Shown piece by piece: positions 7,861 through 14,993 of a DNA stretch of 23,783 nucleotides. Every line of letters begins with the position of its first letter. The stretch's first letter is position 1. Origin of the DNA: a virus. Both the position numbers and the translations under genes were made by a program. The stretch covers positions 1 to 23,783 of IMG/VR virus record IMGVR_UViG_3300028762_000043; one strand, written 5' to 3'. The notes beneath the pieces were generated by a model. That model was given only the letters and a program-made list of their open reading frames with translations. It ran no database searches and was not told where the DNA came from.

Positions 7861-10800
7861 TCAGGCAACTTTGCGGGCGATCAGCGCCTCGATGCTCGAC
7901 GCAAGGCGGCGGATTTCGGTGAGCGTCGCCGAGGCGACATCGACCTGCTGCTGGCCGTAACGAGCAAACGTGTCGCGCAGGGCGTCGGTGCCATCGACCT
8001 GCGCCTGCAACAGCGAGCCGAGGCCGGCGGTATCGCCGCCCTTGGTCGAGACCACCGAGGCCACCTCGGCGACCAGCGCGGCGTAGCGTTCCGAGGTGCC
8101 GAGAAAGTCCCGCGCCACCGGCAGCACCTGCTGGGCGATGGCGGTGTAGTCCGACAGCGCGCCGCCGGCGTCGAGCGTGTGGCGCGCGTCGTTCAGCAGC
8201 GACAGGCCGGCGAAGTATTGCTGCTCGGGCGCCAGCGCCGATTGCGAGCCGATGGTCAGGTTGGTCAGCAGGCTGCGCGTGGCGGATTGGTTCTCCGCCT
8301 GGTTGCGCTGCTCGATGGCATCGCGTTCGGCCTTCAGCACGTCGTTGAGCTTGCCGGTGATCGAGGCATAGTCTGCCGTTGCCTTGTAGGCATCGCCGAA
8401 GGCGTCGGTCAGCTGCTTCGTGAGGGCCGTGCGCTCGGCGGTGGCGGCGATGTCGGCCTGTGCCAGGTCGGCTTCGGTGGTCTTGCCCTGCGCACGCAGC
8501 AGCCGGATGTCGTAGCCGGCCACGGTGTCGGACACCGCTTTCGCCGCGGCATCGCGGATAGCCTGGATCTGCTCGTCGCGCTTCTGCACCAGCGCGTCCT
8601 CGGCAAGGCCGTATTGCTTCGCCTGGGTGATGGCGTCACCGAAGGTCTTGTTCAGCGCGTCAATCTGTGTTTGCACCGTGCCGATGTTGACCGTGGTGGC
8701 GGTGAGCTTCTCGTAGGCGTCGTGCAGGTAGGTCAGCCCCGCGACGGCAGCGTCGTAATTGCCGCGCGTCGCGTCGAGCACCTTACTGACATTGCCGGCG
8801 GCATCGGTGAAGGCGCCGGTCAGCTGGTTCTTGAAGATCGTGACGATGCCGGCGATGTCGCCGACGCCGGTGGTGTAGCGGGTGGTTGCGCCATCCTGGG
8901 TCCAGTCCAGCTTGCTGCCATCACGGGTGCCAACCTGCAACGCGATGCTGGCCTGCGCCTTGCTGCCGGCCAGCGCTTCCAGCGTGGCGACCGCCTGCTG
9001 CATGGCGGACAGGGCGTTCTGCCGGCCACCCTGCGTCTCCGAGGTTTCCTTCGGCCCGCTGCTCTGCCAGACCGCGCCGGTTGCAAGGTCGTAGGTGCCG
9101 ACCGCCGTGTGGTCGGAGGGCTTGGGCCCGAACAGGCTGCCGCCGGCGCCGCCGACCAGGCCGCCGATCAGCCCGCCGATGATCGTGCCGACACCGGGGA
9201 TGATCGAGCCGATCGCCGCCCCGGCGGCTGCGCCGGCCCCGGCGCCGATGGACGCCTGCGTCGCATGCGCCGGGTTCAGCGCGCTGCCCAGCATGCTGCC
9301 GGCGCCGAAGCCGATGCCGACACCGCCGAGCATCCCGCCGATGGTTGCCCCCGGCATGGCCGACACGCCGGCGCTGCTGATCGCACCTTCCGCAATCATG
9401 CCATGCGCGCCGCTCGCCATCAGCCCGGCGACCGCATCGGTGCCGGCCACCGTCGTGCCGCCCCACAGCGTCGTGCCCATCAGGCCGGACAGGCCAAGGC
9501 CGTCGCCAAGCGAGCCGGACAGATCGTAGCCGAACAGCTTCGTGCCGCTGCTGCCCAGGTTGAATAGGTCGCCAAGGCTGGACAGCACGCCGCCGCTGCC
9601 GCTGCTGGACGAACCGAGCAACCCGGACATGTCCGACAGCGTGGTGCGGTTGCCGCCGACCAGGCTGTTGAGCAGCGGATTGATCAGCGCCAGCTTGGCG
9701 ACTTCCTGCAGCACGGAAGTCAGCACCGCGCGCAGCACGTTGCCCCATCTCACCACCGAGCCGGTGGCGAAGGCATCCGTGATGGCGCTGCCGACCTGAT
9801 CGAACACCTGCGTCGCCAAATTGCCGACCTCGGTGATGACCGTCTTCTGCCGGGTGAGTTCGGCGTTGGCGGCGGCGACCTCGCCGGCCAGCGACACGTC
9901 GCGCGCGCCACGCCCCGTGTTCGGATCGCCACCGCCGGCGAGGACACGCTGCCGCTCCTTCAGCACCGCCAGTTCACGCTCGCGCTCCTCGACGCTGGCC
10001 GACAGCAGCCCCTGCTCGGCGCGGATGTATTCCAGCTGGTCCTGTTGGCTCTGGATGTTCTGCGCCTCGCGTACCTGCTCCTGCGCCTGGGCGAGCGCGG
10101 TGTATTCGTCGGTCAGCTTGGCTATTTGCGCGGCGCTGGCCTCGTGGCCCTCCTGCGCCAGCTTGCGTGCCTCCTTCTCCGCCTTGTCGGCGGCGGTGGC
10201 GCGCTGCGCGGCGGCGGTGCCCTGTTCGGTCGCATCGGCGAGCCGCAGCTGTGCCGCGACCTCGCCGGCCGCATCGGCGATGTAGAATTCGATGGTGCGG
10301 GCGTGGTCTTTCGTGGCGGTGGTCTGGTTGGCCAGGGCGGCGGTCACGCGGGTGCGGATCAGTTCCTCCCGCGCCGCGCCGGTGAGTCCCTTCTCGGCCG
10401 CTTCCTGCTCGGCCAGCAGCGTGGCGCGCAGTTTTGTCCGTTCGCTCTCCTGCGCCTTCGAGACCTCGATGCTGATCCGGTCCGCCGCGGTCAGGTCCTG
10501 CACCAGCTTGAGCTGGCGCTGCTGGTCCGAGAGGCTGACGCCGGCGACGCTGTCGGCAGAGTTCCAGACATCGTAGGACGGAAGTGAAGCTGCGCCAGCC
10601 GACGCTGTGGCATCGGCCGGCGCAACGGAGCGCGGCACCAGCATGCGCGCGAGCACGCCGGCCTGGCCAGGAATGACCTCTGCGATGGAGGCAAGGCGTA
10701 CATTCGACGCCGCCGTGACTGCGGATGAAGCCGCATTCAGCGCCTTCTCGGCGGCGCTGGTCAGCTGCCCCAGCAGCCAGCGGATATTCGGGTCATTGGC

Positions 10801-11835
10801 GATGGTGTCGGTGAAACCGCGCCAGGCCGTGGACAGACGCCGCATCGCCTGCTCGAACGGGCCGGCCATCGACTCGTCCATGCCCTCGATGCGACGCTTC
10901 AGGGCGGCGAACTCGGCGTCCAGCGCGCCGGCCCGGTCGCCATGCTCCAGCATGGTCCTGATCGCGTCGCGCTCGGTGACGGTCAGGAAGTTCAGCGCGT
11001 CGTCGAGTTGCTTCACCCCGGCATAGCTGCCGCTGAACGCGGCGGCCAGTTTGTCGGCGGCGGCGGAGGCGTCACTGGCCAGCGCCACCGCCGCGTCCGG
11101 CGCCAGCGACGAGACACGGGCGATGTTGGTGTCCGAGACGCCCGAATTGCGGGCGAACTTGCCGATGACCGACGTTGCATCGGCCTCGGATAGCCCCTTG
11201 TCCTGCAGCGCGCGGACGTAGCTGCGCAGGCTGCCAGTGGCGATCTCCGCATCGCGCCCGACCGCGCGCAGCGTGTTGGAGAGGAGTGTGTTCTCCTTGT
11301 CGAAGCTGGTCACTGCCGATACGGCGACGCCGGCCGCCGCGGCGAGCACGCCCAGGCCGATGCCAACCGGCCCAAGCGAGCCGACAACACTGACCAGGGC
11401 ACCGCCCAGCCCGGTGAACGCGCTGGCCACCGTCGCCGTGCCGCGCGACGCGGCCGCGCCGGCCACCGCCGCCGCGCCATAGGCGGTCGCCGCCGCCTGC
11501 AACGAGTCGGTCAGGTCGCCGCTGGTCTTCGCCGCCTCGGCGCTGGCATCGCCATGGTCGCGCAGCGTGGCCTCGGCCGCCGACGCCGCCGCGCCCTGCT
11601 GGCCCAGGCCGGCCCGCAGCCGCGCCAGTGCTTGTTCCGAGCCCGACAGCGACCGCGACAAATCCTGCACGGCCCCGGACATGCCGGCGAGCGCCGGGCG
11701 TGCATCGGCGACCGCATCCTGCACGCGCCGCATGGCGGTGGCGCCGGCGGTGCCGATGCCTTCCAGCTGCCGGCGTACATCCTCGGCGCCGTCCGTCGAC
11801 AGCCGGATCGAAATGGTGCGCGCGGCGCCGCTCAT
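7861..11835 (-). CDS. Tail tape measure protein, lambda gpH-like
   Basis: A 1324-residue protein, the longest in the window. The start at 11835 (MSGAARTISIRL) overlaps the upstream stop by one base; the longer open frame upstream only shadows the preceding gene. It is rich in Ala and in predicted helix. A hydrophobic Gly/Ala stretch lies at about residues 130-178, the next 200 residues resemble the prophage tape-measure (TMP_2/lambda H) domain, a long Glu/Arg/Gln-rich coiled-coil follows, and a second strongly hydrophobic Gly-rich segment lies near residues 820-920 (GSIIPGVGTIIGGLIGGLVG). The protein fixes tail length inside the tube and later helps DNA pass the cell envelope. It follows the G/GT chaperone pair and the DUF6441-like gene. 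Simple scaling from length (about 0.15 nm per residue) would suggest a tail near 200 nm. Confidence 0.92.
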   Translation of the reverse strand: MSGAARTISIRLSTDGAEDVRRQLEGIGTAGATAMRRVQDAVADARPALAGMSGAVQDLSRSLSGSEQALARLRAGLGQQGAAASAAEATLRDHGDASAEAAKTSGDLTDSLQAAATAYGAAAVAGAAASRGTATVASAFTGLGGALVSVVGSLGPVGIGLGVLAAAAGVAVSAVTSFDKENTLLSNTLRAVGRDAEIATGSLRSYVRALQDKGLSEADATSVIGKFARNSGVSDTNIARVSSLAPDAAVALASDASAAADKLAAAFSGSYAGVKQLDDALNFLTVTERDAIRTMLEHGDRAGALDAEFAALKRRIEGMDESMAGPFEQAMRRLSTAWRGFTDTIANDPNIRWLLGQLTSAAEKALNAASSAVTAASNVRLASIAEVIPGQAGVLARMLVPRSVAPADATASAGAASLPSYDVWNSADSVAGVSLSDQQRQLKLVQDLTAADRISIEVSKAQESERTKLRATLLAEQEAAEKGLTGAAREELIRTRVTAALANQTTATKDHARTIEFYIADAAGEVAAQLRLADATEQGTAAAQRATAADKAEKEARKLAQEGHEASAAQIAKLTDEYTALAQAQEQVREAQNIQSQQDQLEYIRAEQGLLSASVEERERELAVLKERQRVLAGGGDPNTGRGARDVSLAGEVAAANAELTRQKTVITEVGNLATQVFDQVGSAITDAFATGSVVRWGNVLRAVLTSVLQEVAKLALINPLLNSLVGGNRTTLSDMSGLLGSSSSGSGGVLSSLGDLFNLGSSGTKLFGYDLSGSLGDGLGLSGLMGTTLWGGTTVAGTDAVAGLMASGAHGMIAEGAISSAGVSAMPGATIGGMLGGVGIGFGAGSMLGSALNPAHATQASIGAGAGAAAGAAIGSIIPGVGTIIGGLIGGLVGGAGGSLFGPKPSDHTAVGTYDLATGAVWQSSGPKETSETQGGRQNALSAMQQAVATLEALAGSKAQASIALQVGTRDGSKLDWTQDGATTRYTTGVGDIAGIVTIFKNQLTGAFTDAAGNVSKVLDATRGNYDAAVAGLTYLHDAYEKLTATTVNIGTVQTQIDALNKTFGDAITQAKQYGLAEDALVQKRDEQIQAIRDAAAKAVSDTVAGYDIRLLRAQGKTTEADLAQADIAATAERTALTKQLTDAFGDAYKATADYASITGKLNDVLKAERDAIEQRNQAENQSATRSLLTNLTIGSQSALAPEQQYFAGLSLLNDARHTLDAGGALSDYTAIAQQVLPVARDFLGTSERYAALVAEVASVVSTKGGDTAGLGSLLQAQVDGTDALRDTFARYGQQQVDVASATLTEIRRLASSIEALIARKVA

Positions 11836-12512
11836 CAGGGTTTGGCCTCGTCTGCCAGGGCCGCGGTGATCCTGTCGCCGAGGATCGGCCCGGCCGCCTG
11901 CCGCACCGCTTCGATGTCGATGCGCTTGCCGGGATGCACGGCGTCGGTGAGGATGAAGGTCGGCACGAAGGGACGGCGCTCGCCCGGGAACAGTTGCTTC
12001 GACATGCGCCAGGCCATCTCGTCGCGCCGCAGCGTGCCGAAATCGACCGCGTCGCCGCCGCGCAGGCACCACAGCCGCACCGCCGGGTTCGACTTCGGGA
12101 CGATCAGGAAGGTGCGGCCGCGCGCCCGCACCATGTCGCCGATGGAGACACGGGGATTTCCGTGGGCGTCCTGGTTGTTCGGCGTCGGAAACACCAGGTA
12201 GCGGCCGTGCCTGGCGACGATCTCCTGCGGGTCCACCAGGGCCAGCACCATTTTCGGCTTCTTCGGATAGATGAACCCCGCTGGTGCCAGCGTGCTGTTC
12301 TGCAAAGCGCTGCCCCCGGTTGGGAAGATGCGGACACCGAACAGGCTGTTGATGCCCTCCGCCGGGAGCGAACCAACCAACTGGGCGCGTATCTCTTCGT
12401 GCACGGCGTCCGTCGCTTCCGTCACGCCGCGGCGGAGGGCGATGGCAAGATCGGCCCTCGCCTGCCGCATCATCGCTTCGGCGTCGCCGATGATGGTGGA
12501 GCGGATGTCCAT
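11835..12512 (-). CDS. DUF6441-like phage protein
   Basis: A 225-residue protein. The start MDIRSTIIG at 12512 overlaps the stop of the frameshift reading frame by one base (TGATG); upstream codons in this frame are arginine-rich shadow. The N-terminal third is helical (ALRRGVTEATDAVHEEIRAQL), the middle is beta-rich with aromatic and lysine clusters (AGFIYPKKPKMVLALV), and the C-terminus is a helix ending ILGDRITAALAD. This pattern recalls the DUF6441 family of alphaproteobacterial phages, but I recognise it from memory only. Its position between the tail chaperones and the tape measure marks it as a tail-assembly factor. It might replace lambda gpZ, which has no clear counterpart here; that is inference. 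Confidence 0.55.
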   Translation of the reverse strand: MDIRSTIIGDAEAMMRQARADLAIALRRGVTEATDAVHEEIRAQLVGSLPAEGINSLFGVRIFPTGGSALQNSTLAPAGFIYPKKPKMVLALVDPQEIVARHGRYLVFPTPNNQDAHGNPRVSIGDMVRARGRTFLIVPKSNPAVRLWCLRGGDAVDFGTLRRDEMAWRMSKQLFPGERRPFVPTFILTDAVHPGKRIDIEAVRQAAGPILGDRITAALADEAKP

Positions 12513-12823
12513 CACGCCGATCCCCGCAAGCGCCGCTGCTCGTCGTCCATCCGCGCATCGAGTCCGCCGAGCATGGCGAAGGCGTCGACGACCCAGGCGG
12601 CCTGGTCGGCAACGCCACCGGCATCCGGCCAGCACCCAATGCCGCCCATGCCGCCGCGGCAGGACGCCCACAGCCGCACGAAGTCGTGCCAGGGCGGTGG
12701 GACCACCAGCCGCGGGTTGGTCGCCCAGGGTTCCCCGCCGACCAGCCATTGCGTGAAGTCCGCGGGGGTCAGGCCGCCGGCGTAGGCGCCGGGCTCCCGG
12801 GCGACGGCGAGAGCCCCGCGGAG
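12512..12823 (-). CDS. gpT-like extension read by -1 frameshift from gpG
   Basis: This 103-codon frame has no credible ribosome site or ATG near its beginning, but is entered exactly when ribosomes slip -1 on the heptamer at 12823-12829 in the gene upstream. The joined product would be 179 residues of gpG followed by 103 residues here, 282 in all. There is no stop between the slip site and the TGA at 12512-12514. The segment contains TPADFTQWLVGGEPW and VPPPWHDFVRLWASC, then a Gly-rich part and a helical end (ARMDDEQRRLRGS). In lambda the T domain of gpGT binds the tape measure and recruits tail tube protein. A separate GTG start at 12706 would give a 64-residue peptide and is the weaker reading. 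Confidence 0.75.
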   Translation of the reverse strand, partial: LRGALAVAREPGAYAGGLTPADFTQWLVGGEPWATNPRLVVPPPWHDFVRLWASCRGGMGGIGCWPDAGGVADQAAWVVDAFAMLGGLDARMDDEQRRLRGSA

Positions 12824-13359
12824 TTTTTTTCCGCATCCGCACCGGGATGCATCAGCACCGAGGCGCGCCAGCCGACCGCTTCCACCTCGTCGCCGGGCAG
12901 CAGGTCGAGCAGCTCCGCCGGTACCATGCCGCGCACGCGCGTGAAGGGTGGCAGGCCGGGTCCGTCCCAGCCGCGCAGGGCGTGGCGCGCCGCCACCCAG
13001 GGCAGCATGCCGAGGTAGCGCTGCCGGGCCGCCAGCATCTCGGCATAGGCCGGCACCGCGGCGCAGGCCGCCTCGATGGCACGAAGCCGCGCCTGCAACG
13101 CCGTGTCGTCCGGCGTTGCGCTGGCAGCATCAATCGCGGCAACCAGCTCATGCGCGTTGCCCGGCGCGATCTCGGCGACGGCGGCGCGCAGCGCTTCGAG
13201 CATCTGCTCGCGCGGCGGATACAGCCCGCCCTCGCGCGCCAGGTCGGCGCGGAAGGCCTGGCGCTCGCGAAACGTCAGCGGCGCGATCAGGTAGCTTCGC
13301 GGCGAACCCTCGGGAGAGAAATGCTCGGCGTCGCGGCGGGAGAACACAGGATCGGTCAT
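12769..13359 (-). CDS. Tail assembly chaperone gpG-like
   Basis: A 196-residue protein beginning two bases after the tail tube stop. It is largely helical and alanine-rich, with LTFRERQAFRADLAREG near residue 29, a helix AELLDLLPGDEVEAVGW near 148-164 and a disordered Ser/Pro/Ala tail after residue 179. Size, place between tube and tape measure, and the slippery A AAA AAC codon pair (Lys178-Asn179) with an open -1 frame all match the gpG half of a siphovirus G/GT pair. gpG-type proteins coat the tape measure before tube polymerisation and are not kept in the virion. The tail after residue 179 is read only by ribosomes that do not slip. Family assignment rests on context and the frameshift signal, not on direct sequence recognition. 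Confidence 0.8.
   Translation of the reverse strand: MTDPVFSRRDAEHFSPEGSPRSYLIAPLTFRERQAFRADLAREGGLYPPREQMLEALRAAVAEIAPGNAHELVAAIDAASATPDDTALQARLRAIEAACAAVPAYAEMLAARQRYLGMLPWVAARHALRGWDGPGLPPFTRVRGMVPAELLDLLPGDEVEAVGWRASVLMHPGADAEKNSAGLSPSPGSPAPTPAA
12791..12816 (-). promoter_or_regulatory. Stem-loop downstream of the frameshift site
   Basis: Six bases after the slippery heptamer, GGGCTCTC (12816-12809) can pair with GGGAGCCC (12798-12791) across a 10-base loop, giving an 8-bp stem with one G-U pair. The 6-base spacer is in the range known to stimulate -1 frameshifting by pausing ribosomes. In GC-rich DNA stems arise often by chance, so its role is probable, not proven. Confidence 0.6.
12823..12829 (-). 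promoter_or_regulatory. -1 ribosomal frameshift slippery heptamer
   Basis: On the minus strand the seven bases read A AAA AAC, with AAA and AAC as zero-frame codons of the gpG-like gene (Lys178, Asn179). It is part of a run of seven As (12824-12830), the most prominent homopolymer in a GC-rich gene. A -1 slip here leads into an open frame ending at 12512. This is a classical X XXY YYZ signal. Confidence 0.85.
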
Positions 13360-13361
13360 GA

Positions 13362-14528
13362 TTAGAAACTCGCCAGGAACAGCGCCGCATCGGCGCCTTC
13401 GCAGTTGAAGGCGATGTCGTGCTTGCCGAGGCCGTCGATGGCGCCGGGCTTGAACGACACTGCCTTGGCCAGCGGCGCGGTAACCAGGAAGCGGTTGCCC
13501 GCGCTGGCGCCAAGCATGGCCATCAGCGGCATCTGCGTCCCCTGCTTGAAGGCGGTGTACAGCGCCACCGAGCCGGTGGTGTTCATCAGCGGATCGATCG
13601 TGCCCTTGCTGGCGCGCGCGGTCGGGATCGCCGGGTCATAGCCCTCGGCCGCCTCCGGGTTGTCCGGCAGCACCACGGTGACGCCGGCGTCCAGGGTGAG
13701 CCGTCGGGACTGCGCCAGCGTGCGGTTCAGCTGGCAGCGCCCACCGACAAACCGCGGCGGGGTCTGCCGCACGATGCTGTTCCAGCCGGTCGGCATCGCC
13801 GCGGTGGTGAAGGCCAGCATCTGCGCGCGCAGGTCGAAGCTGAGATAGGCGATGCCGCCGGTCGACAGCTCCAGCGAAAAACTCCCCTGCGCCCCAGTGA
13901 ACTTCCACACGAAGCCGTCGGCGAAGAAGTACAGCGTGCAGGTCTTGATCAGCGAGCCGTCCGAGGTTGGCGCATACAGCACGTTGATCGGCACCTGCGC
14001 CAATGTGCCGGTGCTGCCGGCGGTGGCCATGGTCTCACCGATGGTCGCGACGCGGGTGGCGCTGTAATCGGTGATGCCGGTGGTGAGCGTACGGTCGCCG
14101 CTCAGCAACAGCGGCATGCCGCGATAGGCCTGCGCAGTGCCGAGGAACGGGCTGACCAGGGTCAGCGACGTGGTGGTGCCGACGGTCGCCGCGGTCGGCG
14201 CGCCGACGGCAACGGCGGTGATCGTCTCCGTCATGGTGCAGCATTGCAGCAGCCTGCCCCATTCCGGCGCGGTGCCGGCACTGCCCGAGCCCCGCAGCGG
14301 CAACTTCAGCTGAATGCGCGGACGCAGCCCGCCGACGATGGAGGGTGCCTTGTCGAGCGAGCCGGTGAGCTCGGTGTTGTCGACGACGACCGGATCGAAG
14401 TCGACGGTGAAGTCGGATGCGATCCAGTCGCCGGCGGCGGGCGTGCCGCCGATGGCATCGGTGCCGGACACGGTCTCGATCTTCGCCGCCACCGCGGCGA
14501 AGTTCATGCGGACCAGGGTGATCGCCAT
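13362..14528 (-). CDS. Major tail tube protein
   Basis: A 388-residue protein with a GGAGG ribosome site 9 bases before its ATG. It is Thr/Gly/Ala/Val-rich with alternating beta-type segments (for example TAATVGTTTSLTLVSP and KTCTLYFFADGFVWKF). The start pattern, MAITLVRMNFAAVAAKIETV followed by GSLDKAPSIVGGLRPRIQ, is common in tube proteins of GC-rich siphophages and prophages. It lies between the tail terminator and the G/GT chaperones, exactly where lambda gene V lies. Tube proteins stack as hexameric rings around the tape measure. The length is above the 150-250 residues usual for lambda-type tubes, so it may carry an extra decoration domain. No enzymatic motif is seen. Confidence 0.78.
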   Translation of the reverse strand: MAITLVRMNFAAVAAKIETVSGTDAIGGTPAAGDWIASDFTVDFDPVVVDNTELTGSLDKAPSIVGGLRPRIQLKLPLRGSGSAGTAPEWGRLLQCCTMTETITAVAVGAPTAATVGTTTSLTLVSPFLGTAQAYRGMPLLLSGDRTLTTGITDYSATRVATIGETMATAGSTGTLAQVPINVLYAPTSDGSLIKTCTLYFFADGFVWKFTGAQGSFSLELSTGGIAYLSFDLRAQMLAFTTAAMPTGWNSIVRQTPPRFVGGRCQLNRTLAQSRRLTLDAGVTVVLPDNPEAAEGYDPAIPTARASKGTIDPLMNTTGSVALYTAFKQGTQMPLMAMLGASAGNRFLVTAPLAKAVSFKPGAIDGLGKHDIAFNCEGADAALFLASF

Positions 14529-14543: not shown

Positions 14544-14993
14544 TCAGGATGTGAAGGGCTGGCCGGTTGGGGCAACCGCCAGCAGCGAGAAGCGGGCGAC
14601 GAACGCGCCGGCCGGGCGGGCGGATTCGTCGGCGGCGTAGGTGCGGAAGCTGGCACTGTCCTCGGCGACGTCACTGATACCGCCTGCATCCGGCGTCCAG
14701 CCGGCCAGCGCCGTGATCACCGCGGCATGCAGGGCGGACACCGCCTGCTCGGCGCCGAGGTCGGTTGCGGCACCGGCATAGCCGACGACATCGAAGCCGA
14801 TGGTGTAGTGGGTGGCACCGGGCTGCTGCGTGGTGTCGGCGGCCCAGTCGGTGCCGGTGACGATCAGCCGCGGCAGCGCCTCGGCATCGGTGTCGACCGG
14901 TGCGCGCCGGGCGCGCTCGACGGTGGCGCCCGGCACGGCACTGGCCAGCTGTGCAGCCACCGCAGCGAGCGCCGCCTCGCGGAGCGGGGTCAC
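14544..14993 (-). CDS. Tail terminator, gpU-like
   Basis: A 149-residue protein with a GTG start at 14993. The start sits in a GTGA overlap with the natural end of the upstream membrane-protein frame, suggesting translational coupling. The first helix (LREAALAAVAAQLASAV) followed by a PRLIVTGTDW strand, a YTIGFDVVGYAG strand and a helix AVSALHAAVITALAGW fits the alpha/beta pattern and size of lambda gpU (about 131 residues). gpU-type proteins form a hexameric ring that stops tube growth and joins the tail to the head. Position directly before the tube gene agrees. Sequence similarity to gpU itself is not obvious by eye, so the call depends on pattern plus gene order. Confidence 0.65.
   Translation of the reverse strand: MTPLREAALAAVAAQLASAVPGATVERARRAPVDTDAEALPRLIVTGTDWAADTTQQPGATHYTIGFDVVGYAGAATDLGAEQAVSALHAAVITALAGWTPDAGGISDVAEDSASFRTYAADESARPAGAFVARFSLLAVAPTGQPFTS

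Follow-up and report, generated by a model that had tools for sequence, protein, structure and literature searches.

Conserved A AAA AAC and G GGA AAC slip sites point to a lambda G/GT-type frameshift in an apparently unnamed family of phage tail chaperone candidates

A siphovirus-like phage of alphaproteobacteria, represented by a 23,783-nucleotide viral sequence (IMG/VR record IMGVR_UViG_3300028762_000043, the whole of which is referred to here as the window), very probably encodes a tail assembly chaperone pair, G and G-T, by means of a -1 ribosomal frameshift at the heptamer A AAA AAC; we put the probability of this reading at about 95%. It is built on the anatomy of the two overlapping frames, a slip heptamer that is conserved among relatives, a switch at that heptamer in the frame under conservation and a location among tail genes.

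According to the proposed mechanism, most ribosomes would stay in the zero frame and synthesize a G protein of 196 amino acids. A small share of them, when AAA is occupied by tRNA-Lys and AAC by tRNA-Asn, would slip back by one base into the -1 frame and go on to produce a G-T fusion of 282 amino acids. By analogy with lambda gpG and gpGT, from which the chaperone function of both products is also proposed, the roles may be divided so that G coats the tape measure protein and T brings in the major tail protein, and tail assembly may be controlled by the G:GT ratio.

The genes of interest lie on the minus strand of the window, where the order is terminase small subunit, portal, capsid-protease fusion, tail terminator, major tail protein candidate, G/T, a DUF6441 gene, tape measure and further tail proteins. 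The tail terminator (14544-14993, minus strand) matches PHROG 4204 (E 3e-7), and in most related loci a homologue precedes the major tail protein gene. The major tail protein candidate (13362-14528, minus strand; 388 residues) was assigned by its position and has no Pfam or PHROG match; where the upstream DNA is long enough, nearly all loci have a homologue at this position. Downstream of T are the DUF6441 protein (PF20039; 11835-12512, minus strand), homologues of which follow T in about 56 of the 90 unique loci, and the 1324-residue tape measure protein (7861-11835, minus strand), recognized by PF06791 TMP_2 (E 1.6e-12) and PHROG 24. Homologues of the terminator, major tail protein, DUF6441 and tape measure genes keep this order in most loci.

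Some Roseomonas-type loci carry cassettes of about 0.7–2.5 kb directly before G or after T (L081 1481-2287, minus strand; L081 3491-4396, plus strand; L015 3306-3943, minus strand), which include a DUF4365 gene and antisense toxin-antitoxin pairs (an addiction-module antidote, PF21716, beside a Gp49-like gene, and an HTH gene beside a ParE-like gene). Accessory genes seem to have a hotspot at the flanks of the frameshift pair, inside the tail operon.

The zero-frame gene (12769-13359, minus strand) begins directly after that of the major tail protein candidate and would encode the G-like chaperone; it is retained as an open frame in 30 aligned homologues, with 30–71% identity to the window, and its predicted structure has an all-helical core (pLDDT 88). 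Near its 3' end the codons GAA AAA AAC (12831-12823, minus strand) specify Lys178 and Asn179 with AAA and AAC. A tandem -1 slip requires that the heptamer be read as A AAA AAC in the zero frame, and the one at 12823-12829 (minus strand), which forms part of a run of seven consecutive A, is placed in this manner. AAAAAAC occurs twice in the whole window; the second copy (22759-22753) is inside the terminase small subunit gene and out of slip frame there.

From the heptamer on, the -1 frame is open from 12823 to a TGA at 12514-12512, so that the T part (12512-12823, minus strand) comprises 103 codons plus the stop. The TGA shares one A with the ATG of the DUF6441 gene at 12512. The predicted structure of T has a pLDDT of 88, and the T product would be made only as part of the predicted 282-residue fusion. 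These features (the heptamer in the correct frame at Lys178-Asn179, an open -1 frame of 103 codons, a TGATG overlap and a 282-residue product) had been described in a first-pass annotation made from the letters of the window, and all of them hold on re-reading of the codons.

Relatives were collected with a profile built from three T sequences; the search of viral contigs yielded 65 loci and that of bacterial genomes 42. The closest matches to the window T have 63% identity and occur in two viral contigs. The T relatives belong to alphaproteobacterial phages and prophages, the bacterial genomes being mostly Roseomonas and other Rhodospirillales or Acetobacteraceae, with the addition of Synechococcus phage MinM1 (ON981384), whose T is 39% identical (tblastn). 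A total of 107 loci were read including the window and MinM1 (106 besides the window), corresponding to 90 unique sequences with the window, and grouping of the T proteins at 80% identity gave 24 lineages below that level. One weak partial match of 32 residues (L115), the only examined match lacking the heptamer, was left out as probably not a T homologue.

Several bacterial genomes contain two or three G/T copies on different contigs, and a 92-kb viral contig (IMGVR_UViG_3300036770_007174) has two divergent copies (L032 and L036) about 69 kb apart. The presence of multiple copies per genome suggests several related prophages.

Conservation of the heptamer and of the -1 frame in relatives had been proposed as a check on the frameshift, and both are kept in all 106 related loci. 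A heptamer in slip frame is found where T homology begins in 107 of 107 loci, as A AAA AAC in 60 unique sequences and G GGA AAC, the only substitute, in 30. Position by position across 17 lineages, conservation upstream of the slip site is high in the zero frame and low in the -1 frame; downstream, the -1 frame is highly conserved from its first leucine on. In several clades a zero-frame stop follows AAC directly, and T is still kept in the -1 frame. Without slippage at the heptamer it would be difficult to account for the switch in the conserved frame together with the retention of T beyond a zero-frame stop. We infer both the occurrence and the efficiency of slippage from this conservation, which bears out the main point of the first-pass annotation, namely a frameshift pair resembling gpG/gpGT. 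That annotation had also emphasized the A-run; about a third of the unique relatives have G GGA AAC instead, and comparison of the sequences indicates that what is conserved is the class of heptamer and not the A-run as such.

Other explanations for the two frames can be weighed against the same data. T might be a separate gene with its own start, its overlap with G reflecting compact packing. An open reading frame of 64 residues beginning with GTG does exist inside T (12512-12706, minus strand), and in MinM1 T is annotated as a separate CDS with an ATG start. This GTG at 12706 is codon 40 and the earliest ATG, GTG or TTG of the window -1 frame. T residues 1–39 ahead of it are conserved, beginning with the very first one past the slip, and both L1 and A4 are invariant among relatives. 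In addition, 77 of the 90 loci lack any ATG, GTG or TTG in the T frame from codon -20 to codon +8, and the heptamer is universal despite being made of rare codons: in the G genes of the 24 lineages AAA accounts for 4 of 45 Lys codons (9%) and GGA for 11 of 267 Gly codons (4%). A separate T gene is consequently very unlikely, and the 64-residue frame is best regarded as spurious, as had been suspected.

The T frame could also be reached if the RNA polymerase slipped on the run of seven A in the window, where an extra A would shift reading to that frame. The 30 of 90 unique relatives with G GGA AAC have no long homopolymer, however, and both heptamers conform to the X XXY YYZ pattern of tandem slippage, which makes transcriptional slippage highly improbable.

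There is scarcely any chance that the heptamer is kept merely for the residues that it encodes in the zero frame. The Asn encoded by AAC is indeed invariant, both at the heptamer in each of the 24 lineages and in the position-wise comparison of 17. Yet at the slip codon Lys and Gly alternate among lineages and the codon stays AAA (11 lineages) or GGA (13 lineages). The codon ahead of it ends accordingly, always in A before AAA and in G before GGA, which completes the heptamer whether this earlier codon specifies Glu, Ala, Val or Arg.

Finally, although homopolymer runs are typical sites of sequencing error, an error or a pseudogene indel has practically no probability as the source of the split, since it recurs at the same codon in 90 unique sequences from many independent records, among them phage genomes, prophages and isolates (Roseomonas ponticola, for example).

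A stem-loop after the slip site had been put forward for the window. A hairpin does fold at 12791-12816 (minus strand), with 9 pairs (one U-G), an 8-nt loop and the 6-nt spacer originally noted; it does not possess the special stability or the conservation expected of a stimulator. Its z score is -1.27, with 24 of 200 shuffles equally good, and a slightly shifted segment of 55 nt folds differently (z = 0.0). Post-slip segments of 34 relatives have a mean z of -0.50 (standard error 0.21); control segments from these genes span -0.52 to 0.16, a range that includes this value. Folding 33 aligned slip sites together gives a consensus energy of only -1.2 kcal/mol, and the pairs of the window hairpin are 65% retained in relatives with zero compensatory changes. 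The dual coding of the post-slip stretch limits these comparisons. A sound post-slip hairpin is present in a single clade (L041-L064), in which the pairs barely vary and are hence uninformative. A scan of the slip site against Rfam gave no match, and a conserved stem-loop 5–9 nt after the heptamer, sought by stability, consensus folding and covariation, was not found. The stem-loop was accordingly rejected as a frameshift stimulator, its stability resembling that of shuffles and controls and its pairs being broken in relatives.

At least 24 lineages use just two heptamers, each with AAAC as its last four bases, and lack a conserved stem-loop. Such a pattern would suggest efficient slippage of alphaproteobacterial ribosomes at XXXAAAC, either with no structural stimulator or, in some clades, with help from the immediate stop. 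We regard this as a tentative and rather doubtful proposal. It differs from the situation in E. coli, where AAG-based sites are favoured; there, A_AAA_AAC promotes less slippage than A_AAA_AAG (PMC5009743), which counts against the frameshift reading of the window.

Profile searches for named families gave no hit above chance. No significant match to Pfam or PHROGs was obtained for 30 G and 32 T proteins, profile searches of the G proteins against NCBIfam found no match, and neither did tblastn of G against phage records. The structural models of G and T have no significant match among solved structures in the PDB. In a fold search of viral proteins with the G model, the second-ranked hit was a named tail assembly protein and several tail assembly chaperones came lower, all of them weak (best E 0.05). 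G and T apparently constitute a sequence family that is new, with no name in the libraries searched, within the known class of lambda G/GT-type tail chaperone frameshifts.

A well-sampled and apparently unnamed tail chaperone family would in this way be added to a known recoding mechanism. The interchange of two heptamers provides a clean comparative data set, and the efficiency of AAAC-type sites becomes testable outside E. coli. Annotators could correct a recurrent error in alphaproteobacterial phages and prophages, in which T is missed or truncated.

The G/GT pair of phage lambda is the model tail assembly chaperone frameshift (Levin 1993; Xu 2004; reviewed in PMC5009743), and the two proteins reportedly arise from slippage near the end of the G gene. 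The lambda slip heptamer is G GGA AAG. As in lambda, the window pair lies between the major tail protein and tape measure genes and consists of a G gene with a tandem-slip heptamer near its 3' end and an overlapping -1 frame devoid of its own start, yielding a fusion product. Unlike lambda, the window uses A AAA AAC and its relatives A AAA AAC or G GGA AAC, and the DUF6441 gene intervenes between T and the tape measure gene; judging from lambda-like gene order, DUF6441 may be a relocated tail completion protein. In addition, the window G and T have no detectable sequence homology to any chaperone family of Pfam or PHROGs.

Conservation of the G-T frameshift extends widely across long-tailed phages (PMC5009743). 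The same two heptamers as in the window family are found in the tail chaperone genes of the haloarchaeal viruses HCTV-1 and HCTV-2 (G_GGA_AAC and A_AAA_AAC; PMC5009743), which differ from the window family in having archaeal hosts. In Rhodobacter phage RcKvothe (OP009275), an alphaproteobacterial siphophage that by gene content appears to belong to the described RcC cluster (PMC8601537), the tail assembly chaperone is annotated as a joined gene and contains G GGA AAC in slip frame. The phage resembles the window in the place of the chaperone within the tail operon, the fused capsid-protease and the presence of a DUF6441 homologue, which lies upstream of the gene adjoining the tail tube in RcKvothe and between T and the tape measure in the window family. 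The RcKvothe chaperone was considered as a homologue of the window pair and discarded, as no sequence similarity was detected for either G or T.

Another known phage, MinM1 (ON981384), has A AAA AAC in slip frame and then a DUF6441 gene after T, and differs from the window in having a zero-frame stop immediately after AAC. In its record (L013 149-403, ON981384.1) G is split across the record ends as a misc_feature, no frameshift is annotated and the separate T CDS starts 20 codons past the slip site, which exemplifies the mis-calling of T by annotation pipelines that had been predicted for the window.
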